A stretch of 64,000 nucleotides of DNA, from contig JAAUZX010000066.1 of the NCBI GenBank assembly GCA_014804365.1, forward strand, positions 1 to 64,000, read 5' to 3'. Shown piece after piece: positions 14,958 through 52,619 of the stretch. Under the pieces are notes generated by a model. That model had not been told where the DNA came from, did not search any database, and saw nothing but the letters and a program-made list of their open reading frames with translations. The translations under genes were made by a program, and so were the position numbers. The DNA is from Lachnospiraceae bacterium (GTDB taxonomy: Bacteria > Bacillota > Clostridia > Lachnospirales > Lachnospiraceae). How positions within the stretch are numbered: position 1 is the first letter of the stretch; each line of letters begins with the position of its first letter.

Positions 14958-15044
14958 GGAAGAATCGCTCTTAGCGATTCTTCCGGAGATAATATAGATT
15001 TGCTTGGGCGGCGTCTTTTGACGCCCTAGAAAATCTTTATCTCC
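14958..15044 (-). repeat. Two-hairpin element A behind etfA stop
   Basis: In plus orientation: a 12-bp perfect hairpin GGAAGAATCGCT/AGCGATTCTTCC (14958-14984), then outer arm GGAGATAA (14985-14992) pairing with TTATCTCC (15037-15044) around a core AGATTT-CTTGGGCG ... CGCCCTAG-AAATCT. The outer arm ends 2 bp from the etfA stop codon. The same plan occurs at 20062, 45018 and 52528 with different but still complementary arms. No T-run follows, so it is not a standard terminator. Confidence 0.85.
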
Positions 15045-15046
15045 TT

Positions 15047-16093
15047 TTATTTTGCTGCCGCAATCTCAGCCTTCAGAGCTGCTGTCAGCTTCGGAACGAT
15101 CTTATTCAGATCACCTACTACGCCATAGTCAGCTACATCGAAGATCGGAGCGTCTGCATCCTTGTTGATTGCTACGATGATATCAGACTCTTCCATACCT
15201 GCCACGTGCTGGATCGCACCGGAGATACCGATTGCGAAATATACGTTAGGACGAACAGTCTTACCTGTCTGACCTACCTGCAGATCCTTCGGCTTCCAGC
15301 CGGAATCAACAACTGCACGGGAGCAGCTAACCGTACCGCCGAGCACTTCTGCAAGCTCTTCCAGAATCTTGAAGTTCTCCGGGCTTCCTACACCACGTCC
15401 GCCGGATACGAGGATCTTAGCATCCATGATATCTACTGTCTCAGTAACAGCCTTCACGATATCAAGAATCTCTACGTATTTGTTATCTGGTGTAAAGCCG
15501 GGATTGTACTCTTCTACTACAGCCTTTGCGCCTTTGATCGGGTCAATCTTCTGCATAACGCCTGCACGAACCGTAGCCATCTGAGGACGGTTGTAAGGAC
15601 AAGCGATGGTTGCGATGGTGTTACCGCCGAATGCCGGACGGGTCATGAGGAGCTGGTTATGTAACTGCTCCTGTCCCGGAACTGCCTGCAGCGGGAAATC
15701 ACCGATCTCCAGAACGGTACAGTCTGCTGTCAGACCTGTAGCAACTCTTGCGGATACTCTCGGTCCCAAATCTCTACCGATCGCTGTAGCGCCGACCAGC
15801 ATGATCTCGGGTTTATACTGATTGATTACGGAAGCAAGTGCATGTGCGTAGGGCTCTGTTCTGTAATCCTTCAGCTCAGGATCATCCACTACGATCACCT
15901 TGTCTGCACCGTATTCAGCAAGCTGGTCTGCAAGCCCTTTGATTCCGGAGCCGATCAACACAGCCGTCACGTCTGTACTTAAGTCTTTAGCGAGGTCTTT
16001 TGCTTTGCCAAGTAACTCGAATGCAATACTGCTGATCTCATTGTCTACCTGCTGCGCAAAGACATATACACCCTTGTATTCTTCTAAATTCAT
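15047..16093 (-). CDS. etfA: Electron transfer flavoprotein, alpha subunit
   Basis: 348 aa. N-terminal ETF fold (about 1-200) and C-terminal FAD domain (about 222-340) with [14 protein letters not shown], the SRAVVDSGW segment and [24 protein letters not shown]. With EtfB it passes electrons from NADH to Bcd and ferredoxin in bifurcating complexes of Clostridia. It is the last gene of the butyryl-CoA operon, 260 bp after etfB; the long structured gap is unusual because Etf subunits are needed in equal amounts. Confidence 0.96.
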
Positions 16094-16353
16094 TTTTTAT
16101 ATTCCTTTCTCTATACCTGGATATAGTCTTATTTTCGTTGAAAACATCTAGACTCGCAAACTTGCGCTGTCGCGCTTCTTCTTGCGAGTATTCTATTTTG
16201 TTCAGCCCACGCCATGCGCAAAACCGCGTCTTCGACGCTTTCCGCTGCTTCGCAGCTCCTTTTGCTTATGAACGGGCGTTCCCTCAGGCCATCGTCCGTC
16301 CGTCAAATCTGTGCAAGCACAATTTGCCTGACAGATTCGGTCTGGCTGAACTG
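16094..16353 (-). other. Structured 260-bp intergenic region between etfB and etfA
   Basis: No gene seen. Several inverted repeats: ACTCGCAA/TTGCGAGT (16152-16191), GCGTCTTCGACGC and GCTGCTTCGCAGC (16226-16258, both with TTCG loops) enclosed by GCAAAA/TTTTGC, and CAAATcTGTGC-AA-GCACAaTTTG (16305-16326). The plan (outer stem around hairpins) recalls the elements at 14958 and 20062, but the sequence is different. It could tune etfA expression or mRNA stability. Confidence 0.6.
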
Positions 16354-17136
16354 TTAGATAACATGTTTCACTTTTAACTTGTCAACAATGTAGCTTACTG
16401 ACTCGTCGGGATCAAGAGTAACCTTTTCGCCGGCACCTTTTCTTACCTTATCGGAAGCCTTAGCGATCTTCGTCGGTGAACCTTTCAGACCTAAGTTTGC
16501 ATCGTCTACATCCTTTAAGTCTGCTCTGCCCCATACGGTGATCTCCTGCTTATATGCATCGAAGATTCCGCCGGGTGTCATATAACGAGGCTCGTTCAAC
16601 TCGGAAAGCGCCGTGATCAGGCAAGGCATTTTAGCCTTTACAACATGATATCTGTCTTCGTACTGACGCTCAACGATCACGCTGTCGCCTTCGATCTTGA
16701 TATTCTGCGCATAAGAGATTACAGGGATATCAAGATGCTCGGAGATCTGAGGACCTACCTGAGCCGTATCACCATCGATCGCCTGACGGCCTGTGATGAT
16801 GAGATCGTATTCAAGATTTCTGATCGCACCTGCAAGTGTTGTGGAGGTTGCCCATGTATCCGCACCGCCGAGTACTCTGTCAGTTACGAGAACGCCCTTG
16901 TCTGCGCCCATAGCCATCGCCTCACGCAGAACTTCTTCCGCCTTGGGAAGACCCATCGTTACAACAGTTACTTCCGCACCATACTGATCTTTTAATCTGA
17001 GTGCTGCTTCCAGACCTGCTTTATCATCCGGGTTCATGATCGTAAGCATAGCGCCTCTGTCAAGTGTTCCGTCAGGATTAAACTTAACGCCGCCCTTTGT
17101 ATCAGGAACCTGTTTAATACAAACAACAATTTTCAT
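16354..17136 (-). CDS. etfB: Electron transfer flavoprotein, beta subunit
   Basis: 260 aa, begins MKIVVCIKQVPDTKGG. Contains the ETF beta signature region (VIVERQYEDRYHVVKAKMPCLITALSE) and the DPDD/GLEAALRLKD segment. In bifurcating Etf of Clostridia the beta subunit binds a second FAD near the NADH site; ITGRQAIDGDTAQVGP is the conserved nucleotide-contact segment. It starts 53 bp after bcd, preceded by GGAGAGAAA. Partner of EtfA (15047) and Bcd (17190). Confidence 0.96.
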   Translation of the reverse strand: MKIVVCIKQVPDTKGGVKFNPDGTLDRGAMLTIMNPDDKAGLEAALRLKDQYGAEVTVVTMGLPKAEEVLREAMAMGADKGVLVTDRVLGGADTWATSTTLAGAIRNLEYDLIITGRQAIDGDTAQVGPQISEHLDIPVISYAQNIKIEGDSVIVERQYEDRYHVVKAKMPCLITALSELNEPRYMTPGGIFDAYKQEITVWGRADLKDVDDANLGLKGSPTKIAKASDKVRKGAGEKVTLDPDESVSYIVDKLKVKHVI

Positions 17137-17189
17137 TGTATTTCTCTCCTTATATTATTTATTCGTTTATGTTGATCTATGTTGCCGAC

Positions 17190-18341
17190 TTACTTTAACA
17201 GTGAACCGGAGATAACCATTCTCTGAACTTCGCTTGTTCCTTCGTAGATCTCCGTGATCTTAGCGTCACGCATCATACGCTCTACATCGTACTCTCTGAT
17301 GTAGCCGTAACCGCCGTGTAACTGAACAGCCTTGGTGGTCACTTCCATAGCAACCTCTGCAGCGTATAACTTAGCCATAGCAGCCTCTACGGAATATACC
17401 TTCTGGGTAGCCTTAGCCATAGCAGCCTTGTATACGAGCATCTGAGCAGCCTGTACCTTGGTAGCCATATCTGCCAGCTGGAACTGTGTATTCTGGAAAG
17501 CGCCGATTGTTCTGCCGAACTGCTTTCTTTCTTTTACATACTGGATGGTTGTCTCCAAAGCGCCCTCAGCAAGACCGAGTGCCTGAGAAGCGATACCGAT
17601 ACGTCCGCCGTCCAGTGTGTGCATAGCGATACCGAAACCTTTACCCTGCTGTCCGAGTAAGTTGTCCTTCGGGATACGGCAGTCCGTGAAGATCAGCTCG
17701 TATGTAGAAGAACCGCGGATACCCATCTTCTTCTCTTTCGTACCGAAGGTGAAGCCGGGTGTTCCTTTTTCTACGATAAATGCGGAGATTTCTTTGGTCA
17801 TTCTGCCGCGCTTCTCAACTGTTCCGGTGATTGCGAAGATAACATATACGTCAGCTTCCTTACCGTTTGTGATAAAGCACTTGGAGCCGTTAAGTACCCA
17901 CTCGTCTCCGTCAAGTACAGCCTTAGTCTGCTGTCCCTGCGCGTCTGTACCTGCACCGGGCTCTGTCAGACCGAAAGCGCCTAACTTCTCACCTTTAGCA
18001 AGGGGAATCAGATATTTCTGTTTCTGCTCTTCTGTACCGTATGTCATGATCGGATCACAGCACAGAGATGTATGTGCGGATACAATAACGCCTGTTGTTC
18101 CGCATACCTTGGAGAGCTCCTCTACACACATAGCATATGTCAGAGGATCACAGCCCTGTCCGCCGTACTCCTTCGGAACAGGGATTCCCAGGAAACCTAA
18201 CTTAGCCATTTTCTCAACGGTCTCTCTCGGGAAAACTTCTGTCTCGTCTACCTCTTGAGCGAGAGGTTTTACTTCTTTTTCAGCGAACTCTTTAAAGAGA
18301 GCTCTCGCCATTTCATGTTCTTTGCTTAAAGTAAAATCCAT
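17190..18341 (-). CDS. bcd: Butyryl-CoA dehydrogenase
   Basis: 383 aa acyl-CoA dehydrogenase reducing crotonyl-CoA to butyryl-CoA. N-terminal helical domain, middle beta domain with GLTEPGAGTDAQG and CFITNG, C-terminal helical domain with the catalytic base in ITEIYEGTSEVQR (Glu about 367). Length equals clostridial Bcd. It lies 27 bp behind hbd and directly before etfBA, so the bifurcating Bcd-EtfAB complex is encoded in order. Confidence 0.96.
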   Translation of the reverse strand: MDFTLSKEHEMARALFKEFAEKEVKPLAQEVDETEVFPRETVEKMAKLGFLGIPVPKEYGGQGCDPLTYAMCVEELSKVCGTTGVIVSAHTSLCCDPIMTYGTEEQKQKYLIPLAKGEKLGAFGLTEPGAGTDAQGQQTKAVLDGDEWVLNGSKCFITNGKEADVYVIFAITGTVEKRGRMTKEISAFIVEKGTPGFTFGTKEKKMGIRGSSTYELIFTDCRIPKDNLLGQQGKGFGIAMHTLDGGRIGIASQALGLAEGALETTIQYVKERKQFGRTIGAFQNTQFQLADMATKVQAAQMLVYKAAMAKATQKVYSVEAAMAKLYAAEVAMEVTTKAVQLHGGYGYIREYDVERMMRDAKITEIYEGTSEVQRMVISGSLLK

Positions 18342-18368
18342 GATTTTTTATTCCTCCATGTTTATTTA

Positions 18369-19208
18369 TTATTTTGAATAGTCGAAAAATCCTACGCCGG
18401 TCTTTCTGCCGAGTTTCTTCTCTTCAACCATCTTCTTCAGAAGCGGCTGCGGAGCATATTTCTCATCCTTAGTCTCATTATAGAGAACTTCCATAATCGC
18501 AAGGCAGATATCCAGACCGATCAAATCGCCCAAATGAAGCGGTCCCATAGGATGGGATGCGCCGAGCTGCATAGCAACATCGATATCTTCTGCGGAAGCC
18601 GTGCCAGCATCCAGTACACCGATCGCCTCGTTGATCATCGGGATCAGGATTCTGTTTACAACGAAGCCGGGAGCTTCCTTAACCTGTACGGGAGTCTTGC
18701 CGATCTCTGTAGCGATGGCTGTGATCTTGTCTACCATCTCCTGAGGAGTATTCTCGCCTCTGATAACCTCTACCAGTTTCATTCTGTCAGCAGGATTGAA
18801 GAAGTGCATACCGATCATCGGTCTGTCTAAGCCTTCTCCGATCTTAGTGATGGAAAGAGAGGATGTGTTGGAAGCAAACATACAATCTTTCTTAACGATA
18901 CCCATCAGCTCTTTAAAGATAGACTGCTTGATTTCCATTTTCTCAAGAGCAACCTCTATGATCAGGTCGCAGTCTGTACAGATGCCGTTTAAGCCGGTTG
19001 TGATCTTACCCATGATCTCGTCAGCTTTTTCCTGTGTGATCTTCTCTTTGCCGACAAGGAAGTTCATGTTCTTCTGAATCTTCGCCTTGCCGCCTTCTGC
19101 GTACTCTTCTTTGATATCGCAAAGGCAAACTTCATATCCGTCTGTCATAGCGAATGCCTGTGCAATACCGGAACCCATTGTTCCTGCACCGATAATACCT
19201 ACTTTCAT
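18369..19208 (-). CDS. hbd: 3-hydroxybutyryl-CoA dehydrogenase
   Basis: 279 aa, reduces acetoacetyl-CoA to 3-hydroxybutyryl-CoA. N-terminal Rossmann fold with GAGTMGSGIAQ; catalytic HFFNPADRMKLVEV (His about 138) and the Glu of the EVIRG segment; C-terminal dimerisation domain ending KTGVGFFDYSK. Whether it prefers NADH or NADPH cannot be judged with certainty. The gap to crt is 26 bp with AAGGAGG before the ATG. Confidence 0.96.
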   Translation of the reverse strand: MKVGIIGAGTMGSGIAQAFAMTDGYEVCLCDIKEEYAEGGKAKIQKNMNFLVGKEKITQEKADEIMGKITTGLNGICTDCDLIIEVALEKMEIKQSIFKELMGIVKKDCMFASNTSSLSITKIGEGLDRPMIGMHFFNPADRMKLVEVIRGENTPQEMVDKITAIATEIGKTPVQVKEAPGFVVNRILIPMINEAIGVLDAGTASAEDIDVAMQLGASHPMGPLHLGDLIGLDICLAIMEVLYNETKDEKYAPQPLLKKMVEEKKLGRKTGVGFFDYSK

Positions 19209-19234
19209 TGTAAGTCCTCCTTATTTATTTAATA

Positions 19235-20020
19235 TTATTTGTTTTTAAAAGGCTCTTTCACCTTCTCCTTATTCTTGTCAAGGAAGAATGCCATACCGTA
19301 CTTCTGGTCTTCTGTCTCGAAGCAGTCACCAAACAGCTTCTCTTCGATCACGATTGCCTCGTCCATGCCAACCTCTAAGCCGTCATTGATCGCTTTCTTG
19401 CAGTTGCGGACAGCGATCGGTGCATTCTTAGCAATGCCTGCTGCCATCTTCTCAGCGGCTGCCATCAGCTCTTCCTGCGGATATACAGCGTTTACAAGAC
19501 CGATTCTAAGCGCCTCATCAGCCTTGATATTTCTTGCCGTGTAGATCATCTGCTTCGCCATGCCCGGTCCTACGATCCTGGCAAGTCTCTGTGTGCCGCC
19601 GAAGCCCGGTGTAATACCGAGACCAACCTCAGGCTGACCGAATACCGCATTATCGGAACAGATTCTGATATCACAGCTCATGGAGATTTCACATCCGCCA
19701 CCCAATGCAAAGCCGTTTACTGCCGCAATGACGGGAATCGGGAATGTCTCTAACTTACGGAATACGTCATTACCCTTCTTACCGAAAGCTTCGCCCTCTG
19801 CCTTGGTCAGTGTGCTCATCTCGCCGATGTCTGCACCCGCCACGAAGGATTTCTGACCTGCGCCTGTTAAGATCAGGCATCTTACTTCATCCAGATTCAC
19901 GCCGTCCAGAGTCTCATTCAGCTCGTCCAGCACGGTAGAATTAAGTGCATTAAGCGCTTTCTCACGATTGATGGTGATAACGCCGACCTGTCCTTTTACC
20001 TCATATAATACAAATTCCAT
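19235..20020 (-). CDS. crt: 3-hydroxybutyryl-CoA dehydratase (crotonase)
   Basis: 261 aa enoyl-CoA hydratase family enzyme dehydrating 3-hydroxybutyryl-CoA to crotonyl-CoA. Motifs: NALNSTVLDEL, oxyanion-hole AGADIGEM and GFALGGGCEISMSCDIR, and catalytic glutamates in FGQPEVGLGITPGFGGTQRL. Second gene of the operon; 152 bp separate it from thl, filled by the two-hairpin element D. Confidence 0.96.
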   Translation of the reverse strand: MEFVLYEVKGQVGVITINREKALNALNSTVLDELNETLDGVNLDEVRCLILTGAGQKSFVAGADIGEMSTLTKAEGEAFGKKGNDVFRKLETFPIPVIAAVNGFALGGGCEISMSCDIRICSDNAVFGQPEVGLGITPGFGGTQRLARIVGPGMAKQMIYTARNIKADEALRIGLVNAVYPQEELMAAAEKMAAGIAKNAPIAVRNCKKAINDGLEVGMDEAIVIEEKLFGDCFETEDQKYGMAFFLDKNKEKVKEPFKNK

Positions 20021-20061
20021 TATATATGTCTCCTTCTAATATATTTCAATCTATACACTTC

Positions 20062-20173
20062 GGAGAATGCCGTCTTTATGGCATTCTCCTGCGTGAGAAA
20101 GATTTGCATTGCAAATCGTAGAACTTCTTAGCGAAACAGCCCTTGCTGTGAGCTTTAGAAGTTCTTCTCACGC
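20062..20173 (-). repeat. Two-hairpin element D behind thl stop
   Basis: Plus orientation: hairpin GGAGAATGCC/GGCATTCTCC (20062-20089), then outer arm GCGTGAGAA (20091-20099) pairing with TTCTCACGC (20165-20173), whose last base is part of the thl stop codon. Inside lie a small hairpin ATTTGC/GCAAAT and a core AGAACTTCTTAGC ... GCTTTAGAAGTTCT. It has the same layout as the elements at 14958, 45018 and 52528, with one extra inner hairpin. Confidence 0.75.
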
Positions 20174-21354
20174 TAGTCTCTCTCAACGATAGTAGCACAT
20201 CCCATACCGCCGCCGATACACAGTGTAGCAAGACCCTTCTTAGCGTCCTTAGCTTCCATCTCATGAAGCAGCGTTACAAGGATACGGCATCCGGAAGCTC
20301 CTACCGGATGGCCCAGTGCGATTGCACCGCCGTTCGGGTTAAGCTGCTTGTCTACATCAATGCCGAGCTCTTTGCCTACTGCTACGGACTGTGCTGCAAA
20401 TGCCTCGTTTGCCTCGATGATATCGAAGTCTTCGATCTTGTAGCCTGCTTTCTCCATAACTTTCTTAGTAGCCGGAACAGGACCGATACCCATAACCTCA
20501 GGTCTGCATCCTGCAAGAGCGCCTGCTACGAAAGTAGCCATCGGCTTAACGCCTAATTCTTTTGCCTTCTCTTCACTCATCACAACGATTGCTGCCGCAC
20601 CGTCGTTGATACCGGAAGCGTTACCTGCCGTAACAAATCCGTTGGGATTGATGGGACGAAGTTTCTGAAGTCCTTCGATCGTGGAACCCGGTCTCGGTCC
20701 CTCATCAACCTTGAACTCAACCATCTCTTTTTTCTTCTTAACCATAACAGGTACGATCTCTTTATCAAAAGCGCCGCTCTTCTGAGCTGCCTCAGCCTTT
20801 GCCTGACTCTTTAATGCAAACTCATCGAGTTCTTCACGGGTAAGTCCCCACTCTTCACAGATATTGTCTGCGGTCTTGATCATATGATAGTTATTAAAAG
20901 CATCCCACAATGCATCGTTTACCATGGTATCTACCAGAGTACCGTTATTCATTCTGTAACCGTAACGTCCCTGCATCATAGCGTAAGGAGCCATGGACAT
21001 GTTCTCCATACCGCCCGCTACAACGATATCGGCATCTCCTGCCTGAATCATCTGTGCTGCCATGTTGACACAATTAAGACCGGAACCGCACACTACATTG
21101 ATGGTAACTGCCGGAACCTCATTGGGAAGTCCTGCTTTGATGGATGCCTGACGAGCCACGTTCTGACCCTGACCTGCCTGAATAACGCATCCCATGTAAA
21201 CATGGTCAACCTGATCGGGCGCTACTCCTGCTCTGTTCAACGCTTCCTTAATTACGATTGCTCCAAGCTCTGCTGCCGGAGTCGTGCTTAAGCCTCCGCC
21301 CATAGTACCGATAGCCGTACGGCAAGCACCTGCCAAAACAACTTTTTTTGCCAT
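20173..21354 (-). CDS. thl: Acetyl-CoA C-acetyltransferase (thiolase)
   Basis: 393 aa biosynthetic thiolase condensing two acetyl-CoA to acetoacetyl-CoA, the first step to butyryl-CoA. Active-site Cys in [12 protein letters not shown] (about 89), NEAFAAQ, His in [14 protein letters not shown] and the C-terminal CIGGGMGCA. The ATG at 21354 is chosen over upstream codons because GGAGGGAAAGAAG precedes it and the protein then begins MAKKVVLAG like other thiolases. First gene of the operon; its promoter at 21450 gives an about 90-nt leader. Confidence 0.95.
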
Positions 21355-21447
21355 CTTCTTTCCCTCCATTGTGGTATGATTGTTAGATAGATCTTTGATT
21401 TTCCAGAGTGACAACGATTGTTATTTTTTTGTCATTGTCCGCTTCTC

Positions 21448-22632
21448 CTATTGTAGCATAGAGGTATCCTTTTTGCAATGGTTTTCTACCTCGGGATCTG
21501 CCATTTCACGGGTACGTTTCCACTCTTTTGTGCCCTCGATTTTCGCCACCTCACTGCGGTTGCGATAGAGGAATTTGGTCAGCTCATAGCAGTCCACCCA
21601 GATCTCGTTATTTCCTTCTTTCTGGGATTCGTCGAAAATGAGCTGCAGGCCCCAGTGGAGATGTACCGTCTCGATATTATTGACATTTTCTTTCGTGCTG
21701 TAACCGGTGTGTCCCATATAGCCGATCACGTCCCCCGCCGTGACTACACTGCCTTCCTCAAGTCCTTCCGCGTACGGGTAATTCTGGCGCAGGTGGGCAT
21801 AATAATAGTATCTGCTGCCGTCGAAGCTGCGGATGCCGATGCGCCAGCCGCCGTACTGGTTCCAGCCCAGCGCCTCCACGACACCGGACTCGATGGCGAT
21901 AATCGGCGTACCGATCATGCCCATCATATCATGGCCCAGATGCGGTCTGGAATATCCATAGCTTCTGGAAGCTCCGAAGTCGTCATAATGGCTGTAATCA
22001 AAACCTTTTGCAATCGGAGAGAAAGCCTTCAGCCCGTAATAACGGTTCCACTGATTCTCCTCACGTAAGGAAAACTCTCCCACCATCCCGCCGAGCACTG
22101 CCGAGTATGCCTCCAGGTAATAATCGTAATACTCCATATCCTTCGTCAGCTCTTCCATGGTTGTCTCACCTTCGGTCAGCTGCCTCGCCGTCTCGTTGAT
22201 TTTCTTGACACTGTTCTTATCGAATTGGCCTCCCGTCCTTGCGCCCACATAGGCGAGAAGTTCGATCCAGTTAAGGTGCACATCCTTTTCATAAGATTCC
22301 ACGTCCAGATCGTAGGCTGCCGCCATCGCCTCGCAAGTCACGTTATACTCCACCCATTTTATGAAATTGCCATCCGCCGTCACCTCGATCGCCTCACCGG
22401 CATCCGACGTCCGTCCTATCTCCTCTCGCACGCTCTCCGAACCCTGCCATCTGCCTGTCAGTTCTTTAGTGATCGCTACACAGCCCAGCGCAATCAACAG
22501 GAGCAATTCGATCCGTATGGCATATCCGATCCTGCTGCCTGTCTTTCCGGCGCTCCTGTACATGTTTCTGCCTCTGCCGCCGCTGTGATCTTTGATTTTC
22601 CTGACTTTTCTACTGTCTCTCCCTATCCCCAT
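21448..22632 (-). CDS. M23 family metallopeptidase, membrane anchored
   Basis: About 394 aa from the chosen ATG at 22632, which has GGAG 5 nt upstream. A longer frame reaches 22752 but would begin inside the terminator hairpin at 22747. One membrane helix (about 40-57) is followed by an extracytoplasmic helical region and a LytM/M23 domain with zinc ligands HLGHDM (His, Asp) and HLHWG (HxH), so it probably cleaves peptidoglycan cross-bridges. The C-terminus TSMLQ overlaps the thl promoter. It may be activator- or sporulation-type (SpoIIQ-like) by architecture, but this is not established. Confidence 0.85.
   Translation of the reverse strand: MGIGRDSRKVRKIKDHSGGRGRNMYRSAGKTGSRIGYAIRIELLLLIALGCVAITKELTGRWQGSESVREEIGRTSDAGEAIEVTADGNFIKWVEYNVTCEAMAAAYDLDVESYEKDVHLNWIELLAYVGARTGGQFDKNSVKKINETARQLTEGETTMEELTKDMEYYDYYLEAYSAVLGGMVGEFSLREENQWNRYYGLKAFSPIAKGFDYSHYDDFGASRSYGYSRPHLGHDMMGMIGTPIIAIESGVVEALGWNQYGGWRIGIRSFDGSRYYYYAHLRQNYPYAEGLEEGSVVTAGDVIGYMGHTGYSTKENVNNIETVHLHWGLQLIFDESQKEGNNEIWVDCYELTKFLYRNRSEVAKIEGTKEWKRTREMADPEVENHCKKDTSMLQ
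21450..21478 (-). promoter_or_regulatory. Promoter of thl-crt-hbd-bcd-etfBA operon
   Basis: TTGCAA (21478-21473), 17-bp spacer, TACAAT (21455-21450) on the minus strand, overlapping the last codons of the M23 peptidase gene. It is the only good sigma-A match in front of thl. Confidence 0.75.
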
Positions 22633-22746
22633 ATACACTCCATATGTCACTGCTGCCCGCCCGTGTCGTGAACGCCACTGAAACATTCCTGTTTCAATCA
22701 CCCTTGTGACAATGCGGGCAAATTTATGGTTATGTATATGAAAAAT

Positions 22747-22774
22747 CCCCACGGGTTATGACAGCCCGCAGGGG
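22747..22774 (-). terminator. Terminator after glycosyltransferase gene
   Basis: CCCC-CGGG pairs with CCCG-GGGG around an 8-nt loop; on the minus strand it is followed by ATTTTT. It sits 52 bp behind the GT2-GtrA stop and separates it from the M23 gene. Confidence 0.8.
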
Positions 22775-22826
22775 TTTGTACGTTTGAACGTATCTTTCTG
22801 CTCATTCTGTCGGAAAGGCAGACACA

Positions 22827-23900: not shown

Positions 23901-23930
23901 TTCCTGTTCTCCTTCCGCTTACGCTTCACT

Positions 23931-23970
23931 CACAAAAAACACCTCGCAGAAGCATCTTCTGAATAGTTAC
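23931..23970 (-). repeat. Dispersed repeat, GTAACTATTCAGAAG type
   Basis: On the minus strand: GTAACTATTCAGAAG-ATGCTT-CT-GCGAGGT-GTTTTTTGTG, lying just before the GT2-GtrA gene. Nearly identical to half of the element at 26036 and to 10315. Confidence 0.7.
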
Positions 23971-23979
23971 AATATTTTT

Positions 23980-25992: not shown

Positions 25993-26035
25993 TACCTTTT
26001 AAACCCCGTATCTCACACTTTATATTCCTTTTCAT

Positions 26036-42397: not shown

Positions 42398-42610
42398 CGT
42401 AATATTCCTCCAATACACTATATTTTTACACACAGCACTATTATAACATATTTGTAAATAAATTCTACAAGAAAATTATAATTTTTGTATTTTTTGCGTT
42501 TTTTCACTAAATTCTACCAATTAGATCGATTTACATATATAATTATATCCATTTTCCAAAAACATGACGACATATCCTTTTTCCCTCACAGAACATGTCT
42601 TTCTGCAAAA

Positions 42611-42640
42611 AAATACCCCGCACATCTGTACAGGGTATTT
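42611..42640 (-). terminator. Terminator of ribosomal superoperon
   Basis: AAATACCC / GGGTATTT stem; on the minus strand followed by T7. It lies 17 bp after the rplQ stop and ends the rpsJ-rplQ transcript. Confidence 0.88.
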
Positions 42641-42656
42641 GCTCACATCATATATA

Positions 42657-43193: not shown

Positions 43194-43349
43194 AATAAAT
43201 TCCTTTCTCACTGGGGAGTTCTCTCCCACAACATGGTGTACATCCGGCCACGCGCTTCGGACTTACTTACCGAATGTGTTAACAGTTCCATTCATGAGCA
43301 GGCGCACGGGTGCTCTTCGGGCTTATCCTGCACGCCATTCATATATAGA

Positions 43350-44309: not shown

Positions 44310-44351
44310 GCAAATACCCTCCTTTGCGAACATGTTGGAAAACCACTGCTA

Positions 44352-44945
44352 TTATTTAGAGTACAACTCGACGATAAGCATCTCGTTGACCGGAACGTCG
44401 ATCATCTCTCTTGTGGGAAGATGTTTCACGGTTCCCTTCAGTGCTTCCTGATCTACCTCTAACCACTCCGGAACAAGTCTTCCTGCCGTCACTTCAAGGA
44501 TATCTTTATATCTCTGCAGAGATCTGGATTTCTCTCTTATTTCGATCACATCGCCTGCTTTAACCAGATAAGACGGAATATGCACCGGCTTGCCGTTTAC
44601 GAGAAAATGCTTATGACCTACGACCTGTCTGGCCTCTCTTCTTGTTCTTGCAAAGCCCATTCTGAACACGATACTGTCCAGTCTGCTCTCCAGCATGACC
44701 ATAAGATTCTCACCGGTCATACCTTTCATTCTCTCTGCCTTTTCATAATAGTTTCTGAAAGGCTTCTCCAATACACCATAGATAAATTTAGCTTTCTGTT
44801 TCTCTCTGAGCTGAAGACCATACTCGCTGATCTTCTTACCGGCTCTCGCCGATGTTCTGTTGGATTTCTTATCGTATCCTAAATAAGTAGGATCTAAATC
44901 AAGTGATCTGCATCTTTTCAATACAGGAACTCTGTTTACTGCCAT
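44352..44945 (-). CDS. rpsD: 30S ribosomal protein S4
   Basis: 197 aa, primary 16S-binding protein with an S4 RNA-binding domain (about 87-150: [20 protein letters not shown]) but without the N-terminal four-Cys zinc site of other S4 forms (C-minus type; only RCRSLDLD is seen). In known systems S4 can repress the alpha operon. It begins 164 bp after rpsK, behind element B. Confidence 0.97.
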
Positions 44946-45017
44946 TTCTTTTGGCTCCTCTCATTATAATTTTGTTTACAACGCCGCACTCGGCGCCTTC
45001 ATCCAATGCTTTCATGT

Positions 45018-45107
45018 GGGAAGAATTGCGCTTTTTGCAATTCTTCAGGACGAAACATAGATTTTCTTAGGCTGCGTCCTTTGCTGCCTTAGGAAATCTT
45101 TTCGTTC
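45018..45107 (-). repeat. Two-hairpin element B behind rpsK stop
   Basis: Hairpin GAAGAATTGC/GCAATTCTTC (45020-45046), then outer arm GGACGAAA (45048-45055) with TTTCGTTC (45100-45107; one G.T) around AGATTT-CTTAGGC ... GCCTTAG-AAATCT. It ends 2 bp before the rpsK stop codon. Same plan as A, C and D. Confidence 0.85.
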
Positions 45108-45109
45108 TA

Positions 45110-45505
45110 TTAGACGCGGCGGCGCTTAGGCGGACGACATCCGTTATGAGGCACGGGAGTTACGTCACGGATACTTGTCACTTCCAGACCGCATGCCTGC
45201 AATGCACGGATTGCTGCCTCACGACCCGAACCCGGACCCTTAACCATAACATCTACTGTCTTTAAACCATGTACTAAAGCAGCCTTAGCCGCTGTCTCTG
45301 CAGCCATCTGTGCCGCATATGGAGTAGATTTCCTTGAACCTCTAAAACCAAGACCACCTGCACTTGCCCAGCTTAATGCGTTACCTTCTGTATCTGTCAA
45401 GGTAACGATCGTATTGTTAAAAGAAGACTGGATATGTGCCTGTCCACGTTCAACGTTTTTCTTTACACGCTTTTTTGTCACTTTTTTTGTAACTTTTTTA
45501 GCCAT
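45110..45505 (-). CDS. rpsK: 30S ribosomal protein S11
   Basis: 131 aa. Basic Lys-rich N-terminus ([14 protein letters not shown]), [32 protein letters not shown] and C-terminal [13 protein letters not shown]. Platform protein of the 30S subunit that contacts mRNA near the E site. Gap of 80 bp from rpsM. Confidence 0.97.
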
Positions 45506-45585
45506 AATAAACTAACCTACTTTCTCCTAATCTGCTAACTTCAATTACTAAACAACTTTTCAGAATCCCCGATTACGGGTTCATC

Positions 45586-45954
45586 TTATTTCTTCTTATT
45601 TGCTACTGTTCTCTTCGGACCTTTTCTTGTTCTTGCGTTGGTCTTAGTCTTCTGACCACGAACCGGAAGTCCCTTCCTGTGGCGGATACCTCTGTAACAT
45701 CCGATCTCCTGAAGACGCTTGATGTTCAGTGCGATCTCTCTTCTCAGATCACCTTCCACCATGTAATCCTTATCGATCACCTCAGCAATTCTCTTTACCT
45801 CATCGTCAGTTAATTCTCTGACACGGGTGTCAGGATTTACGTTTGCTGCCTCCAGAATCTTGTTGGAGCTTACTCTACCGATACCGTAGATGTAAGTAAG
45901 TCCAATCTCCACACGTTTCTCTCTGGGTAAGTCAACACCTGCAATACGAGCCAT
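45586..45954 (-). CDS. rpsM: 30S ribosomal protein S13
   Basis: 122 aa. [21 protein letters not shown] start, helix-two-turn-helix region [17 protein letters not shown], and basic C-terminal tail [12 protein letters not shown] that touches P-site tRNA. Follows rpmJ by 240 bp of hairpin-containing sequence. Confidence 0.97.
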
Positions 45955-46194
45955 TTACGTTTCCTCCATTTTCTTTACGTTTCGTACGAGACTGCATCTG
46001 AATTTACGAAGCAAATCCCGTAAGCGGGCTTATACCCGCCTTACTAATTGATTGGGGTAGGTTCTACCCAACCGGATCAGACATCCGATCTTTCCAAACA
46101 TAATTGTTGGTATCAAAAAGTAATCTCCCATTAGGCTCCGGCATCTATCTATATAAAATAGGCAAGAACCCCGTTAAACTATATCGTTCGGGGA
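45955..46194 (-). other. Structured 240-bp gap between rpmJ and rpsM
   Basis: No gene seen. Inverted repeats: GTAA-CGGG/CCCG-TTAC (46020-46044), TTGGG-TAG/CTACCCAA (46052-46071) and CCCCG/CGGGG (46169-46193). The position in front of rpsM-rpsK-rpsD suggests a leader for autoregulation of the alpha operon, but no known fold was identified. Confidence 0.5.
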
Positions 46195-46308
46195 TTAACC
46201 TTGTACCTGCTTATGTTTCGGATTCTCACAGATTACTCTGATCTTTCCTTTTCTTTTGATGATCTTGCATTTTTCGCAGATCGGTTTTACTGATGACCTT
46301 ACTTTCAT
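46195..46308 (-). CDS. rpmJ: 50S ribosomal protein L36
   Basis: 37 aa, [20 protein letters not shown] through [11 protein letters not shown]. Zinc site C-X2-C-X12-C-X4-H is complete (C11, C14, C27, H32), so this is the Cys-containing form. AAAGGAGGG precedes the ATG at 46308. Lies between infA and rpsM as in other Firmicutes. Confidence 0.97.
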
Positions 46309-46324
46309 CTCAAACCCTCCTTTC

Positions 46325-46380
46325 AAAAAAGACCGTTTTACATTATACCATCAAACCCAATCTTTGGCAAGGTCTTTTTT
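46325..46380 (-). terminator. Inverted repeat between infA and rpmJ, terminator-like
   Basis: AAAAAAGACC (46325-46334) and GGTCTTTTTT (46371-46380) form a 10-bp stem with a T6 tail on the minus strand, starting 1 bp after the infA stop. The 36-nt loop contains the rpmJ promoter. Few G-C pairs, so termination would be partial. Confidence 0.5.
46342..46370 (-). promoter_or_regulatory. Internal promoter before rpmJ
   Basis: TTGCCA (46370-46365), 17-bp spacer, TATAAT (46347-46342). It would transcribe rpmJ-rpsM-rpsK-rpsD-rpoA-rplQ independently of the S10 promoter. Confidence 0.8.
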
Positions 46381-46381
46381 C

Positions 46382-46600
46382 TTATTTATCACGCCAGATA
46401 ATTCTGCCTTTGGATAAGTCATAGGGTGACAGCTCCAGTGTTACTTTGTCACCGGGCAGAATACGGATAAAATTCTGGCGGAGTTTACCGCTTATGTGTG
46501 CTAACACCACATGTCCGTTCTCCAGTTCGACCTGAAACATGGTGTTCGGCAGCTTCTCAATGACTGTTCCCTCAATTTCGATTACATCAGCTTTTGACAT
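46382..46600 (-). CDS. infA: Translation initiation factor IF-1
   Basis: 72 aa OB-fold protein: [53 protein letters not shown]. Binds the 30S A site during initiation. Its first 14 bp overlap the end of the KOW gene. Confidence 0.97.
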
Positions 46601-46841
46601 TTGCTTCCTCCTGATATTGTTTGATCACTCTCTTGATTTCCAAATCCTTATAACCGTCCGTCGGTCTTATCATCTGTTTCTTCTTAATAATCTGAATATG
46701 TTTCCTGTTTTTCTTCTTCGGTCTGTCCACGGTTCTTTTTCTGCCGTCGGCTAAATATACATATTCATCGTCTTCATCTATTATGACATATATGGTTTTC
46801 TGATCGTGCCCCGCTTTAGAGCTCGCAAGCATTCCTGTCAT
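46587..46841 (-). CDS. KOW-domain RNA-binding protein
   Basis: 84 aa. An N-terminal KOW/L14e-like segment (about 3-45: [39 protein letters not shown]) is followed by a basic tail and a helical end. GGAGTAGAAT precedes the ATG. It overlaps infA by 14 bp, so it is likely translationally coupled to it. Genes like this are common between map and infA in Clostridia; the exact role on the ribosome is not known. Confidence 0.85.
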
Positions 46842-46918
46842 ATTCTACTCCGTTTCCGCACATCACCATGGCTCATTAAGAGGGCGCAGACACAAATCCT
46901 TCTCATTTCCTGATTCTG

Positions 46919-47668
46919 TCACAGCGTCAGGATCTCCGGTTCGCCTTCCGTGATCAACACCGTGTTTTCATAATGTGCCGATAAGGAATGATCCGCCGAA
47001 ACTACCGTCCAGCCGTCATCCAGCCACTCCACATCCTCTGTCCCCATATTGATCATCGGTTCAATCGCCAGTGTCATGCCCGGCCGCAGCTTCGGCCCTC
47101 TTCTTCTCAGTGCAAAGTTCGGAATCTGCGGCGGCTCATGCAGGCTTGTTCCTATGCCGTGTCCCACCAGATCTCTGACGATACCGTAACCATACGGCGT
47201 GACATATGCGGCGATGGCATTGGAAATGTCATGGAGATGATTGCCTGCCTTCGCCATCTTGATCCCCTCAAAGAAACTCTGTCTGGTCACGTCAATCAAT
47301 TTCTGCGCCTCGGCGCTGATCTGCCCTACCGCGTGGGTTCTGGCAGCATCGGAATGATACCCCCGATAGATCAGTCCCGTATCCAGACTGACGATATCGC
47401 CCTCCCGAATGATATGATCTTCTCTCGGAATACCGTGCACCACTTCCTCATTCACAGAGACACACACGGAAGCCGGATATCCCTGATAGTGCAGAAAATT
47501 CGGCGTACACCCGTAACTTCGGATAAGCTCCTCACACACCCTGTCAATTTCCTTCGTGGATATCCCCGGTCTGATCACCTTCACCAGTTCATTATGAACC
47601 AAACCAAGCAGCCTGCACGATTCCCGCATCAGTTCAATTTCTCCAGGCGATTTAATCGTTATTGCCAT
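46919..47668 (-). CDS. map: Methionine aminopeptidase, type I
   Basis: 249 aa, removes initiator Met from new proteins. Five metal ligands are visible: Asp in SLDTGLIYRGY, Asp in HSDAART, His in GHGIGTSLHEPP, Glu in LAIEPMIN and Glu in ENTVLITEG. The ATG at 47668 (MAITIKSPGE) follows GAGAGGATACAGG; a longer frame to 47704 contains no better site. Between adk and the KOW gene. Confidence 0.96.
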   Translation of the reverse strand: MAITIKSPGEIELMRESCRLLGLVHNELVKVIRPGISTKEIDRVCEELIRSYGCTPNFLHYQGYPASVCVSVNEEVVHGIPREDHIIREGDIVSLDTGLIYRGYHSDAARTHAVGQISAEAQKLIDVTRQSFFEGIKMAKAGNHLHDISNAIAAYVTPYGYGIVRDLVGHGIGTSLHEPPQIPNFALRRRGPKLRPGMTLAIEPMINMGTEDVEWLDDGWTVVSADHSLSAHYENTVLITEGEPEILTL

Positions 47669-47721
47669 CCTGTATCCTCTCCCACAGCACTTCTCACACG
47701 TCAATTTCTCTTTTGCATACT

Positions 47722-48363
47722 TTATGACAAGACTGTCACAATAGCCTCAAACACATCGTTCATATCCATCGTGCCGTCTACCGTCTGTAATACGCCCTTC
47801 TTGCTGTAGAACTCAATTAACGGCTGCGTCTGCTCATGATATACATTCAGACGATTCTGCACCGTCTCCGGCTTATCATCGTCACGCAGCACCAGTTCCT
47901 GCCCACAGCTGTCGCAGATTCCTTCCGCTTTAGGCGGTACATGCTCAATATGGTATGTGGCTCCGCATGAAAGGCATGCGCGTCTGCCGCCCATTCTTCT
48001 TACAATATTTTCATCCGGCACATCCACGTTGATTGCATAATCAATCTTATCTCCCAGCTGACTAAGCGCCTTGTCCAGTACCTCCGCCTGCGGAATGGTC
48101 CTCGGAAAACCGTCCAGCACATAGCCGTTCTTGCAATCTTCCTTCGCCACTCTGTCGAGCAGGATCTTGACCGTCAGCTCATCCGGAACGAGCAATCCCT
48201 GATCCATATACTGTTTTGCTTCCATGCCAAGCTGCGTGCCGTTCTTAATATTTGCCCTGAAAATGTCGCCCGTAGACACATGCGGAATTTCATATTTCTC
48301 CGCGATCATTTTCGCCTGTGTTCCCTTGCCTGCGCCGGGTGCACCCAACATAATAATTTTCAT
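47722..48363 (-). CDS. adk: Adenylate kinase
   Basis: 213 aa. P-loop GAPGAGKGTQA, AMP-binding TGDIFRANI and GFPRTIPQAE, and LID domain with a four-Cys zinc site (CLSCGATYH ... CDSCGQEL) usual for Gram-positive enzymes. Balances adenine nucleotides. Follows secY by 139 bp containing TTGAAAAA/TTTTTCAA and GGGACG/CGTCCC hairpins and no promoter. Confidence 0.97.
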   Translation of the reverse strand: MKIIMLGAPGAGKGTQAKMIAEKYEIPHVSTGDIFRANIKNGTQLGMEAKQYMDQGLLVPDELTVKILLDRVAKEDCKNGYVLDGFPRTIPQAEVLDKALSQLGDKIDYAINVDVPDENIVRRMGGRRACLSCGATYHIEHVPPKAEGICDSCGQELVLRDDDKPETVQNRLNVYHEQTQPLIEFYSKKGVLQTVDGTMDMNDVFEAIVTVLS

Positions 48364-48502
48364 AACTGATACTCACGCCTTTCTCATAACCTGCGGTTTT
48401 GCTGCCGCAAGGCACCAATTTGTGATTGAAAAATCTCTGTTTTTCAATGAAACGTAAGGGACGCCTCGGTTGCCCTGCTCGTCCCCATCATTTCCATATA
48501 AA

Positions 48503-49816
48503 TTAATCGTTTAAAAATCCCTTATAATTACGAACCAGCATCTGTGATTCTATCTGCTTGATCGTCTCCAGAACAACGCTCACGATAATAATCAGGCTTG
48601 TTCCGCTGAAGGATACGCTTGCACCGAATACTCCGTTGAAGAAATACGGTACAACGCATACGATTGTAAGTCCTACCGCGCCAATGAAAATAATATAGGT
48701 AAGCACCTTATTCAGATAATCGCTGGTAGGCTTGCCCGGTCTGATCCCCGGAATAAATCCGCCCTGCTTCTTCATGTTCTCCGCAATCTCTAAAGGATTG
48801 AACGTAATGGATGTGTAGAAGTACGCAAAGAAGATAACCAGTGCAATATATACCAACAGTCCGATGGAATACACAAGCTGTTTCGGATTGCACCAATAAT
48901 TGGAATTAACTCCTTTCAAAATCTCAGCCCACACACCGGTGCCGGTAATGCCGAAAAACGAACAAACGATTACCGGAAGCTGCATCAGGGAAGAGGCAAA
49001 GATTACCGGAATAACACCTGAGGTATTCACCTTTAACGGCAGGCTTGTCATCTGGCCGCCAACCATCTTCCTGCCCTGTACTTTCTTGGCATACTGCACG
49101 GGAATCTTACGAACACCGTCATTTAAGATAATAACGAGCACTACCATCAGTATAATGATTGCAATGATAATGATCGCCGCCACAGCACCCTTTGCAATGG
49201 ATTTACCGATCACAAACTGCTCAAATAACTGCGTAATATCCTGCGGTATACGTGACAGAATATTGATCGTCAGCACGATGGAAATACCGTTGCCAACACC
49301 ACTCTCCGTAATCCGCTCTCCGATCCACATAAGAAACGCACTGCCGGCTGTCAACGCCGCAATAACCGTAATCACATTAATGACATTATATGTCTGCAAC
49401 AGTCCCTGACGTCCGAAGCCGATGGCCATAGCGCTGGATTCAATAAGCGCAAGCGCCACCGTCACATATCTCGTGATGGAAGCAATTTTCTTCCTGCCGT
49501 CGGCACCGTCACGCTGCATCTCTTCCAGTTTCGGAATCGCTATCGTCATAAGCTGCATAATAATGGACGATGTAATATACGGCGTAATATTAAGCGCCAG
49601 AACAGACATGTTCAGGAACGAACCTCCCGTAAAAGCATCGAAAAAGTTGAAAGCGTCTCCGGTCTGCTGTGAAAACCAGTCCGCAAAGAAGCCTCTGTTG
49701 ATGCCCGGAACGGGGAGCTGTGATCCGAAACGGATCACAACTAACATCATAAATGTAAAGAAAAGTTTCTTTCTGATTTCTTTGATTTTAAACGCATTCT
49801 TTAAGGTTGTAAGCAT
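48503..49816 (-). CDS. secY: Sec translocase subunit SecY
   Basis: 437 aa with ten membrane helices forming the protein-conducting channel. Recognised: VVIRFGSQLPVPGIN near the N-terminus, plug-region GGSFLNMSVLALNITPYITSS in parts, and cytoplasmic loops with PTSDYLNKVL and YKGF at the C-terminus. The ATG overlaps the rplO stop (TAATG). Confidence 0.97.
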   Translation of the reverse strand: MLTTLKNAFKIKEIRKKLFFTFMMLVVIRFGSQLPVPGINRGFFADWFSQQTGDAFNFFDAFTGGSFLNMSVLALNITPYITSSIIMQLMTIAIPKLEEMQRDGADGRKKIASITRYVTVALALIESSAMAIGFGRQGLLQTYNVINVITVIAALTAGSAFLMWIGERITESGVGNGISIVLTINILSRIPQDITQLFEQFVIGKSIAKGAVAAIIIIAIIILMVVLVIILNDGVRKIPVQYAKKVQGRKMVGGQMTSLPLKVNTSGVIPVIFASSLMQLPVIVCSFFGITGTGVWAEILKGVNSNYWCNPKQLVYSIGLLVYIALVIFFAYFYTSITFNPLEIAENMKKQGGFIPGIRPGKPTSDYLNKVLTYIIFIGAVGLTIVCVVPYFFNGVFGASVSFSGTSLIIIVSVVLETIKQIESQMLVRNYKGFLND

Positions 49817-50256
49817 TAGATCACCTCTGCTGTTCCACCAAGTGCCTCGATCTTTTCTTTCGCGGATGCGCTGAAAGCATTCACTTTCACATCGAGTTTC
49901 TTAGTAAGTTCTCCGTTTCCAAGAATCTTAACCCCATCACGAGGATTCTTGATGATCCCTTTCTCAAGCAGTACATCCACGTCAACCGTCGCGCCGTTGT
50001 CGAACACTTCCAGCGCACTTAAGTTGATCGCCACGATATCCTTTGAATTCCTGTTGGTAAAACCTCTCTTAGGAATACGTCTGTATAACGGCATCTGACC
50101 GCCTTCGAATCCGATTCTGGGTGCTCCTGAACGAGCTTTCTGTCCCTTATGACCCTTACCGGCTGTCTTACCGTTGCCTGAACCGTGTCCACGACCTCTT
50201 CTAAAATTATCACTGTGTACTGACCCGGGCGCGGGTCTTAAATTTGATAATTCCAT
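49816..50256 (-). CDS. rplO: 50S ribosomal protein L15
   Basis: 146 aa. Glycine/basic N-terminal extension ([20 protein letters not shown]) and C-terminal globular part with [19 protein letters not shown]. Late-assembly 23S-binding protein. 14 bp after rpmD; 1-bp overlap with secY. Confidence 0.97.
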
Positions 50257-50270
50257 TCTGACACCTCCTT

Positions 50271-50471
50271 TTATGCTTCTTCTACTTTAACCATATGTCT
50301 TACTTTCTGAATCTGACCTCTGGTTGATGCATTGTCAGGCAGTTCCACTGTCTGATGAAGTTTCCTGAGACCCATAGCTTCAACCGTTGCTCTGTTTTTC
50401 GGAACCTGACCAATGGTAGATTTAATTAAAGTAATCTTTAATGTTTTAGCTGCTTCTTTCTTTGCTGCCAT
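50271..50471 (-). CDS. rpmD: 50S ribosomal protein L30
   Basis: 66 aa with the [20 protein letters not shown] core and [12 protein letters not shown] end; slightly longer N-terminus than the usual 59-60 aa. AGGAGG precedes the ATG. 47 bp after rpsE. Confidence 0.96.
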
Positions 50472-50518
50472 CTTCTTTTCCTCCTAAATATTCTGACCGA
50501 TCAACAACCTTCGGTAAC

Positions 50519-51028
50519 TTAAGCGCGAATCTCTTCTACGGATTTACCGCGGTTCTTAGCTACTTCTTCAGGAGTCTTTAACTGGCGCAGTCCCGCGATC
50601 GTAGCAAGTACGACATTCTGCTTATTGTTGGAGCCTAAAGATTTCGTACGGATATTCTTGATACCTGCAAGTTCACATACAACACGGGCAGGACCTCCTG
50701 CGATAATACCGGTACCTTCCGGAGCTCTCTTAAGGAGTACGGAAGCAGAACCGAATTTTCCGATAAAATCGTGTGTGATACTGCTGTTATCATCAAGTGC
50801 AACAGAAACTAAGTTCTTGATCGCATCTTCCTTACCTTTGCGAATTGCTTCAGGGATTTCAGTTGCTTTGCCTAAGCCTGCACCAACATGACCATTGCTG
50901 TCACCGACTACTACAAGAGCCGTGAAACGCATGTTACGACCACCTTTAACAACCTTAGTAACACGTTTGATCGTTACTACTTTTTCAGTCAATTCTAACT
51001 GACTTACATCAATGATTGTACGTCTCAT
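50519..51028 (-). CDS. rpsE: 30S ribosomal protein S5
   Basis: 169 aa. Double-stranded RNA-binding N-terminal fold with [20 protein letters not shown] and GVGK-like [15 protein letters not shown]-terminal domain with [19 protein letters not shown] and [13 protein letters not shown]. Supports decoding accuracy and mRNA unwinding at the entry channel. 19 bp after rplR. Confidence 0.97.
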
Positions 51029-51047
51029 GTGATTTCCTTCTCCCTTC

Positions 51048-51416
51048 CTAGAATTCTAAGCCAGCTTCTCTGGCTGCCTCAGCTAATGCTGCAATTTTAC
51101 CCTGATATATAAAGCCGCCTCTGTCAAAGACAACAGTCTTAATACCTTTTTCAATTGCTCTCTTAGCGATTACTGTTCCTAAATATGCTGCTGCATCAAC
51201 GTTATTGGTTTTCTCCAGTTCAGACTTTACAGACTTCTCGAGAGTAGACGCCGAAACTAAAGTATTTCCAACTGTATCGTCAATAATTTGAGCATACATA
51301 TGATTATTACTTCTGAACACAGAAAGACGCGGTCTCTCAGCGGTGCCGCTGAAACGGTTACGCAGTCTGTTGTGTTTTTTTACACGAACTTTTTGTCTTG
51401 ATTCCTTACTAACCAT
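51048..51416 (-). CDS. rplR: 50S ribosomal protein L18
   Basis: 122 aa, 5S rRNA-binding. Contains [30 protein letters not shown] and the [20 protein letters not shown] end. The second ATG (51416) is chosen: it is 9 nt from AAGGAG and gives the normal length; ATG 51422 is only 3 nt from it. 20 bp after rplF. Confidence 0.96.
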
Positions 51417-51436
51417 CTTCATACTCTCCTTATCTG

Positions 51437-51979
51437 TTATTTCTTACCAGTCTTACCAACTTTACGTCTAATTGTCTCATCAGCATACTTGATACCCTTG
51501 CCCTTATAAGGCTCCGGTCTTCTCTTGTCTCTGATCTCAGCCGCAAATTGACCAACTTTTTCTTTATCAATACCTTTGACGATGATTACGTTCTGTCCTT
51601 CCATGACAGTCTCGATACCTTCAGGATCTGTCATTTCCACCGGATGAGAGTAACCAAGGTTAAGTGTCAGAGTCTTGCCTGATTTGGACGCTCTGTAACC
51701 TACACCGTTTACTTCCAGCTTCTTCTCGTATCCTTCCGTTACACCGACAACCATATTGTGGATCAGTGTTCTTGTCAGACCGTGGAAAGATTTCATCTTC
51801 TTTAAATCATTGGGTCTGGATACTACAACCTGATCGCCTTCTACCTTGATTTCCATTTCTGCCGGAAGCACTCTCTCAAGTGTTCCCTTAGGACCTTTTA
51901 CAGTCACTTTATTATTTTCTGCTACCTCAACGGTTACACCCGCAGGAATAGCGATTGGCATTCTTCCTATACGTGACAT
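51437..51979 (-). CDS. rplF: 50S ribosomal protein L6
   Basis: 180 aa, two similar domains. [15 protein letters not shown] start, [19 protein letters not shown] in the linker and [16 protein letters not shown] in the second domain. Located near the factor-binding site of 50S. 37 bp after rpsH. Confidence 0.97.
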
Positions 51980-52016
51980 GCCCGTACCTCCTGTTTTAAA
52001 TTCTTGTTATTGTCCA

Positions 52017-52418
52017 CTACCAGACGAAGGCTAACACTTCGCCGCCTACCTGCAGCTCTCTTGCCTTCTTATCCGTTACAACTCCCTGATTAGTAGAGAT
52101 GATTGCAACGCCCAGACCTCCGAGAACTCTCGGCAGATCCTCTTTGCCGGCATATACACGAAGACCCGGTTTAGAGATTCTCTTGATTCCGGAAATGATC
52201 TTGTCATTCTTATCCTCGCCGTATTTCAATGTGATATGAATGGTCTTGAAACTGCCGTTATCGATCAAATCGAACTTTCTAATATATCCTTCATCCAAAA
52301 GAATCTGCGCGATAGCTAATTTCATCTTAGATGAGGGTACATCTACTGTATCATGTTTTGCAGTATTTGCATTACGGATTCTTGTAAGCATATCTGCAAT
52401 AGGGTCGCTCATTGTCAT
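52017..52418 (-). CDS. rpsH: 30S ribosomal protein S8
   Basis: 133 aa. [47 protein letters not shown] and [10 protein letters not shown] are typical. In E. coli S8 represses the spc operon at rplE; no site was recognised here. AAGGAGG lies 7 nt before the ATG at 52418. It follows rpsN by 202 bp that include element C. Confidence 0.97.
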
Positions 52419-52527
52419 GATTTTTCCTCCTTAAATTATTGATCCGCTTATTTCTAGTCATTTATCATACATCCCGCTCTCGGAAGAACAACACTTTCAT
52501 GCCATTTCATCCTTCCGCCAACACACC

Positions 52528-52619
52528 GGAAGAATGAAAGCGTCAGCGACATTCTTCCCAACAAAGCTATAGTGTTTCTTAGGCGGCGTATTTTGACGCC
52601 TTAGAAACTCTCTTTGTTG
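52528..52619 (-). repeat. Two-hairpin element C behind rpsN stop
   Basis: Hairpin GGAAGAATG/CATTCTTCC (52528-52558), then outer arm CAACAAAG (52559-52566) pairing perfectly with CTTTGTTG (52612-52619) around AGTGTTT-CTTAGGCGGCG ... GACGCCTTAG-AAACTC. It ends 1 bp from the rpsN stop codon. Same plan as A, B and D with different arms. Confidence 0.85.

Follow-up and report, generated by a model that had tools for sequence, protein, structure and literature searches.

The window analyzed here, a stretch of 64,000 nucleotides from a Lachnospiraceae bacterium, carries four hairpin elements behind the stop codons of etfA, thl, rpsK and rpsN, exactly where the initial annotation had placed them. All four lie on the minus strand, the strand of their genes, so that the claimed constant orientation to the gene holds for every copy. 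We verified the gene identities with NCBIfam models. The S11 (rpsK) and S14 (rpsN) products score above cut-off and the thl product exceeds the cut-off of TIGR01930 (thiolase); for etfA, strong matches to ETF-alpha models (best 1e-113) stop short of the equivalog cut-offs. The elements and the features adjoining them are as follows.

14911..14938, minus strand: separate terminator-like hairpin with a T-run, downstream of the etfA element, identified by eye
14957..15044, minus strand: etfA element; core of stems P1, P2 and P3 at 14985-15044, second hairpin P4 at 14958-14984; 104.5 bits with covariance model R1
15045..15049, minus strand: target motif at etfA, stop codon TAA followed by AA (TAAAA), directly before the element
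20060..20173, minus strand: thl element, divergent; outer stem at 20091-20099, its partner overlapping the stop codon; extra hairpin at about 20101-20117; P4 at 20062-20089; 14.2 bits, E 0.22 in the model search of the window
45018..45107, minus strand: rpsK element; core at 45048-45107, P4 at 45019-45047; 99.7 bits
45108..45112, minus strand: target motif at rpsK, stop codon TAA followed by TA (TAATA); motif from the logo of 134 copies
52528..52619, minus strand: rpsN element; core at 52559-52619 with a 4-nt bulge, P4 at 52528-52558; 86.5 bits

The unit is about 90-100 nt long. In mRNA order it opens with an outer stem, P1, of 8 bp whose letters vary between copies, followed by an inner stem, P2, with a conserved A.A mismatch, and an upper stem, P3, that ends in a seven-base loop, AAARNAC. 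A bulge, usually of three bases, separates P2 from P1 on the 3' side, and the second hairpin, P4 (GGAAGAAT.../...ATTCTTCC), comes last. Both hairpins of the initial annotation are real, but because the elements are on the minus strand their order is reversed: the large stem leads, and the hairpin that had been called the first is the second. The distance from the stop codon to the outer stem is two bases at etfA, two at rpsK and one at rpsN, and at thl the stem overlaps the TAG, in agreement with the proposed proximity to stops. The folding z-scores are -9.2 (etfA), -8.3 (thl), -6.7 (rpsK) and -5.0 (rpsN), and for each element none of 200 shuffles was as stable as the native fold. Stable hairpins behind genes could be intrinsic transcription terminators. 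We consider this very improbable: when the window copies were read directly, neither hairpin was followed by a T-run, as had been noted before, and the etfA element is itself not the terminator given that a separate hairpin with a T-run sits downstream of it.

We built the first covariance model (R1) from three of the window copies. The etfA, rpsK and rpsN copies are close relatives, and the thl copy is of a divergent type, with another upper stem and an extra hairpin within the bulge; it is missing from the list of model matches in the host genome at E ≤ 1. By eye, the thl-type core is also found at rpsK in congeners. The initial annotation had staked its reading of one family with compensatory stems on further copies in the host genome and on covariation, and both were found. 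With 150 of 297 first-look candidates scored, the host genome holds copies in at least 45 places at E ≤ 1e-5. Covariation over 33 copies was strong: 95.6% of the cells were paired, and two-sided changes occurred in 19 of 24 pairs, in 110 cells compared with 26 in shuffles. The covariation score was 0.433, against 0.157 for the shuffles and at most 0.088 for slid controls. Across 130 cores, the A.A mismatch was kept in 114, the commonest loops were AAAAGAC, AAAGAAC, AAAATAC, AAAGGAC and AAAGTAC, and the foot of the inner stem read GAAG in 85, AAAG in 33, GGAG in 8, AGAG in 2 and otherwise in 2. One genome (G399) has seven copies with one identical 60-nt core, unrelated flanks and differing P4 loops. 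Whole units also occur as tandem duplications with a spacer (roughly 115-145 bases) at six loci (L091, L096, L098, L102, L106 and L111). At another (L080, contig G027:C48), four same-strand copies are spaced by about 2.7 kb, each behind a similar gene end, in an array of related genes that are each followed by an element.

We compared the elements with described RNA families. In the window, Rfam at gathering thresholds matched only the S10 and S4 leaders, both away from the elements. When seven loci with elements were searched at E ≤ 5, every match to an element stayed below gathering, the best being STAXI at L102 (25.1 against a threshold of 40.5). We found no description of the hairpin family in the literature searched, which includes only a minority of subscription journals.

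The family was then sought in other Lachnospiraceae, as had been suggested. Among 61 relatives, a second model (R2) matched 34 genomes, all of them among the 37 of the same genus; none of the 24 genomes from other families of the order had a match. In a wider draw from the family, with strict filters, R2 matched at least 32 of 397 genomes and at least 28 of 334 genera. A 35-nt core model (R3) matched two of 398 genomes of the phylum under strict filters that lose weak matches, namely the host and G267, both of the Lachnospiraceae. Some gut Lachnospiraceae carry tens of copies per genome. A scan of named genomes for the exact pattern gave only nine stretches, eight of them confirmed by R2, and is no measure of distribution; the named matches are Lachnospiraceae MAGs, including one Acetatifactor, one Lachnoclostridium and one Ruminococcus. 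We rejected a phage origin, as there was no phage match and viral contigs had no exact-pattern match, and a plasmid origin, as the single plasmid match covered 27 bases in Paenibacillus bovis at E 0.02. This last match, which may be due to chance, is a lone core-like hairpin in a plasmid from another class, 20-odd bases after a stop codon (L181, 838-872).

We determined the gene setting of 134 copies, retained from 162 matches after removal of 24 opposite-strand duplicates and four weak copies that were partial or adjoining. The sample consists of the top-scoring copies, of which some are orthologous, and is neither unbiased nor independent. Of these, 83 begin between -8 and +11 bases from the in-frame stop codon of an ORF at least 60 codons long, the most frequent positions being stop+2 (31 copies) and the one at which bases 6-8 of the element form the stop (20 copies). 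Most copies (101 of 134) lie between two co-directional genes in sense, and 16 are flanked by a divergent gene upstream and a sense gene downstream, so that they fall in 5' regions; both settings also speak against terminators. A further eight are convergent, behind a sense gene, and five lack one neighbor. Only four of the 129 copies with both neighbors called are antisense to both. Another 21 copies without such a stop codon are preceded by a -10-like box, TA[TC]A[AC]TA. An extended -10 TG is present in 11 of these 21 TATAATA-type copies compared with 6% in shuffles, and their mean -35 match is 3.38 of 6 compared with 2.57, a value of 3.38 being reached in none of 500 shuffles. In a few cases among the 21 (e.g., L012, L015 and L116), the copy is embedded in what remains of another. 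One copy (L027) follows what we take to be the 3' end of a 23S rRNA gene.

The heptamer preceding the element has the consensus TATAATA, which is strongest at -1 (A at 0.89-0.94) and at -4. We scanned element-free co-directional gaps (136 in one run) with a target matrix. A matrix derived from non-stop copies only placed its top weight at stop+2 (4274, compared with 1112 at +4, the next best position in the range -12 to +15). Judged from these sequences, the target is better described as TATAATA or TAANA than as a stop codon. Adjacency to stops looks largely like a target effect, since the motif favors stop+2 and few other places would tolerate an insertion. The "stop-codon-targeting palindromic repeat" suggested in the initial annotation thus keeps its palindromic repeat at stops and gains a refined target that also covers the 21 of 134 copies after a -10-like box. 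Orientation goes beyond the target. The matrix predicts sense insertion in 58-61% of all cases, in 73-77% of those near stops and in 86% of those from -1 to +3. Even at 14% antisense, 4 of 129 antisense copies has a binomial probability of 3.4e-5 and 4 of 105 one of 5.7e-4, both under an assumption of independence; the near-exclusive sense orientation exceeds what the motif predicts. We also rejected replication strand as the control of promoter-copy orientation, because four of seven such copies were opposed to the majority strand on the contigs read. For stop copies the strand is uninformative in this respect, since of 349 co-directional gaps 313 are on the majority strand in any case.

Filled and unfilled sites were compared across congeners. 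At rpsK, R2 (E ≤ 0.01) finds an element in 9 of 30 congener loci, our own included, and one more locus (L171) has the thl-type core by eye. The arms of the rpsK elements differ widely across congeners and stay complementary, and the remaining loci hold unrelated palindromes, remnants of the 5' arm, or nothing. In other species, four loci after rpsK (L163-L166) carry a different palindrome array, of GGAGAAAT...ATATCTCC units, from which it appears that this gap attracts several hairpin families. In the same gap of the window, between rpsK and rpsD, lies a block at about 44957-45010 on the minus strand (GGAAGAAGG...TGTAAACAAA...GAGGAGCC) whose sequence is conserved among the congeners compared and which has no Rfam match at gathering. 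It is possibly a further rpsD leader; we rejected its identification as the S4 leader, which Rfam places upstream of rpsM/rpsK.

Six loci were queried together. At the etfA site, R2 had no match in eight loci of eight congeners, and the unfilled site of G463 and G465 reads the same TAAAA as the target of the etfA copy. Of 10 congener loci of secA type, presumably secA-prfB, one has the element; in the gap behind the secA-like gene, where the host has an element, G027 (L241) has a long unrelated palindrome. At a further locus, with an R2 element in two of six relatives, the element sits within the stop codon: the filled site reads GAATA-A (the dash marking the junction) and the unfilled site, in G009, GAATAG. 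Core-deleted relics occur in G465 and G013, and we rejected G465 at the L026 locus as an empty site because it is such a deletion relic. Comparison by eye made out no target duplication, at a resolution that does not extend to the 3' junction. The element is gained and lost between congeners, and the same gene ends hold it in several species with different compensated arms.

The occupancy of the same gene ends brings in a rival reading, that the unit is a cis-acting mRNA element selected for its function, its hairpins, behind the stop codon or at the 5' end of the transcript, protecting or processing the mRNA or slowing the terminating ribosome, with copies retained and spread for their usefulness. 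It would account for this occupancy, for the almost exclusively sense orientation with most copies between co-directional genes, and for the very stable folds with their conserved loop and A.A mismatch. Furthermore, REPs within 15 nt of a stop codon are reported, in the part of the source considered here, to lower translation in E. coli (PMC12306157). On the other side, the element seems dispensable, as it is absent by model from 21 of the 30 rpsK sites, and the helices do not change as RNA helices might. We counted helix cells in 111 copies (23 of the 134 were excluded for length, N or loop). In P1 and P2 together, 1887 cells include 24 G.T, 20 A.C and 26 other non-pairs, and all helices including P3 include 32 G.T compared with 39 A.C, whereas selection on RNA would be expected to favor G.T. 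Because G.T is no commoner than A.C, covariation, even when strong, does not by itself prove an RNA function. P1 is also equally intact in both settings: Watson-Crick pairs fill 134 of its 136 cells in the 17 promoter copies and 577 of 592 in the 74 stop copies. Yet where a -10 box ends one base ahead of the element, the predicted transcript start falls inside P1, and the RNA should lack the 5' arm. The lack of a G.T excess and the intact P1 of promoter copies lead us to favor upkeep of the stems at the DNA level. The mRNA processing or stability role proposed in the initial annotation is thus weakened by the helices and retains the sense-only orientation and the retention at the same gene ends in its favor; the elements may have a role in mRNA, and as the primary explanation we regard this one as doubtful, though a serious contender.

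Upkeep at the DNA level could also come from mutation alone, if template switching corrects palindromes and keeps the arms complementary with neither hairpin recognition nor function. Two-sided changes without G.T intermediates would fit, as would the tandem duplications and 5'-arm repeats, which are typical of hairpin slippage. We think this improbable because the A.A mismatch (114 of 130), the bulge and the loop recur, and template correction should erase a mismatch.

We searched for a mover. A Y1 transposase (IS200/IS605, RAYT) was rejected, being absent from most of the element-rich genomes tested. Y1_Tnp was not found in the host (G000) or in G013, G001, G027 and G032, of which G013 is 100% complete with 29 R2 matches. 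It is present in G023 (16 R2 matches), the sole positive among nine same-genus genomes tested, and in 5 of 17 genomes tested overall; R2 found no element at E ≤ 1 in 12 Y1 loci. The family may thus lack a dedicated Y1 transposase, and a search for an autonomous partner element, which covered Y1_Tnp, found none. Two genomes, G170 and G267, hold RAYT-like Y1 proteins. We rejected these as partners because their genes are flanked by other repeats, unrelated to the element. The GTAG-like long hairpins of these genomes have the same 35-nt core at their tip, with the loop AAARNAC and, in most, the A.A mismatch, and differ in a foot of CGTAG or CGTAA, a 5'-side bulge and an outer stem that is tens of bp long. 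At L072-L079 in both genomes, very long hairpins have outer arms that differ between most copies yet pair, and a three-way junction with a CGCTYTCGCTT side loop.

The element resembles REPs, as these are described in the portions of PMC3733652 considered here, in being a short dispersed palindrome with compensated stem variants and hairpin pairs, in lying near gene 3' ends between co-directional or convergent ORFs, and in having termini that sometimes supply the stop codon; some REP families have no dedicated transposase (PMC3733652), as may be the case here. In contrast to REPs, it lacks the unpaired GTAG/CGTC end tag (GTAG in 0 of 130 cores), has an extra outer stem P1, a fixed second hairpin and a fixed sense orientation, and also occurs after -10 boxes. 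GTAG REPs are further reported to have frequent G.T pairs (PMC3733652), whereas the element shows no G.T excess, and we found no RAYT flanked by it as in GTAG REP families. The same portions of that paper make no mention of Firmicutes, Clostridia or Lachnospiraceae (PMC3733652). We do not file the element as a REP, given that it has neither the tag nor the transposase, although it behaves in a REP-like way. MITEs such as Correia/NEMIS and RUP are likewise small non-autonomous intergenic repeats, some of which fold in RNA, NEMIS being cut by RNase III, according to the part of PMC2229807 considered. Their terminal inverted repeats are linked to a known transposase, and their target is TA (PMC2229807), whereas the outer arms of the element vary between copies and a search for Y1_Tnp found no partner transposase.

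On balance, we think that the four copies probably belong to a mobile, REP-like family of structured palindromic DNA repeats that is dispersed in the genomes of some Lachnospiraceae. In this model the unit of about 90-100 nt would spread by joining directly 3' of a short AT-rich target with the consensus TATAATA, or TAANA or GAATA in a coding context. Its two settings would arise because the targets that tolerate insertion are above all stop codons with the two bases that follow them and promoter -10 boxes. The copying machinery would recognize the hairpin itself, by its A.A mismatch, AAARNAC loop and bulge, as single-stranded DNA or as a cruciform, and for this reason the arms would remain complementary while their letters drift. 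After insertion, transcription would probably include the hairpins, which may adjust the expression of the gene before or after them. Several observations weigh against the mobile-repeat model: the same gene ends keep the element with compensated arms in several species, as a functional RNA would; the sense bias exceeds the motif; the transposase sought (Y1_Tnp) was not found; and no target duplication was made out.

If the model is right, gut Lachnospiraceae would have a REP-like family of their own, of defined structure, with a target motif and with filled and empty sites that occur naturally. It would offer one system for two old questions about REPs, namely how they spread without a RAYT and whether a hairpin directly after a stop codon affects translation or mRNA stability. 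More speculatively, and in our estimate rather unlikely, a hairpin-recognizing mobile element with a TATAATA-specific, sense-only spread, directed by this specificity to -10 boxes and stop codons and without a known REP transposase, would represent a new transposition route in Lachnospiraceae, one that supplies genomes with preformed hairpins for 5' and 3' UTRs.
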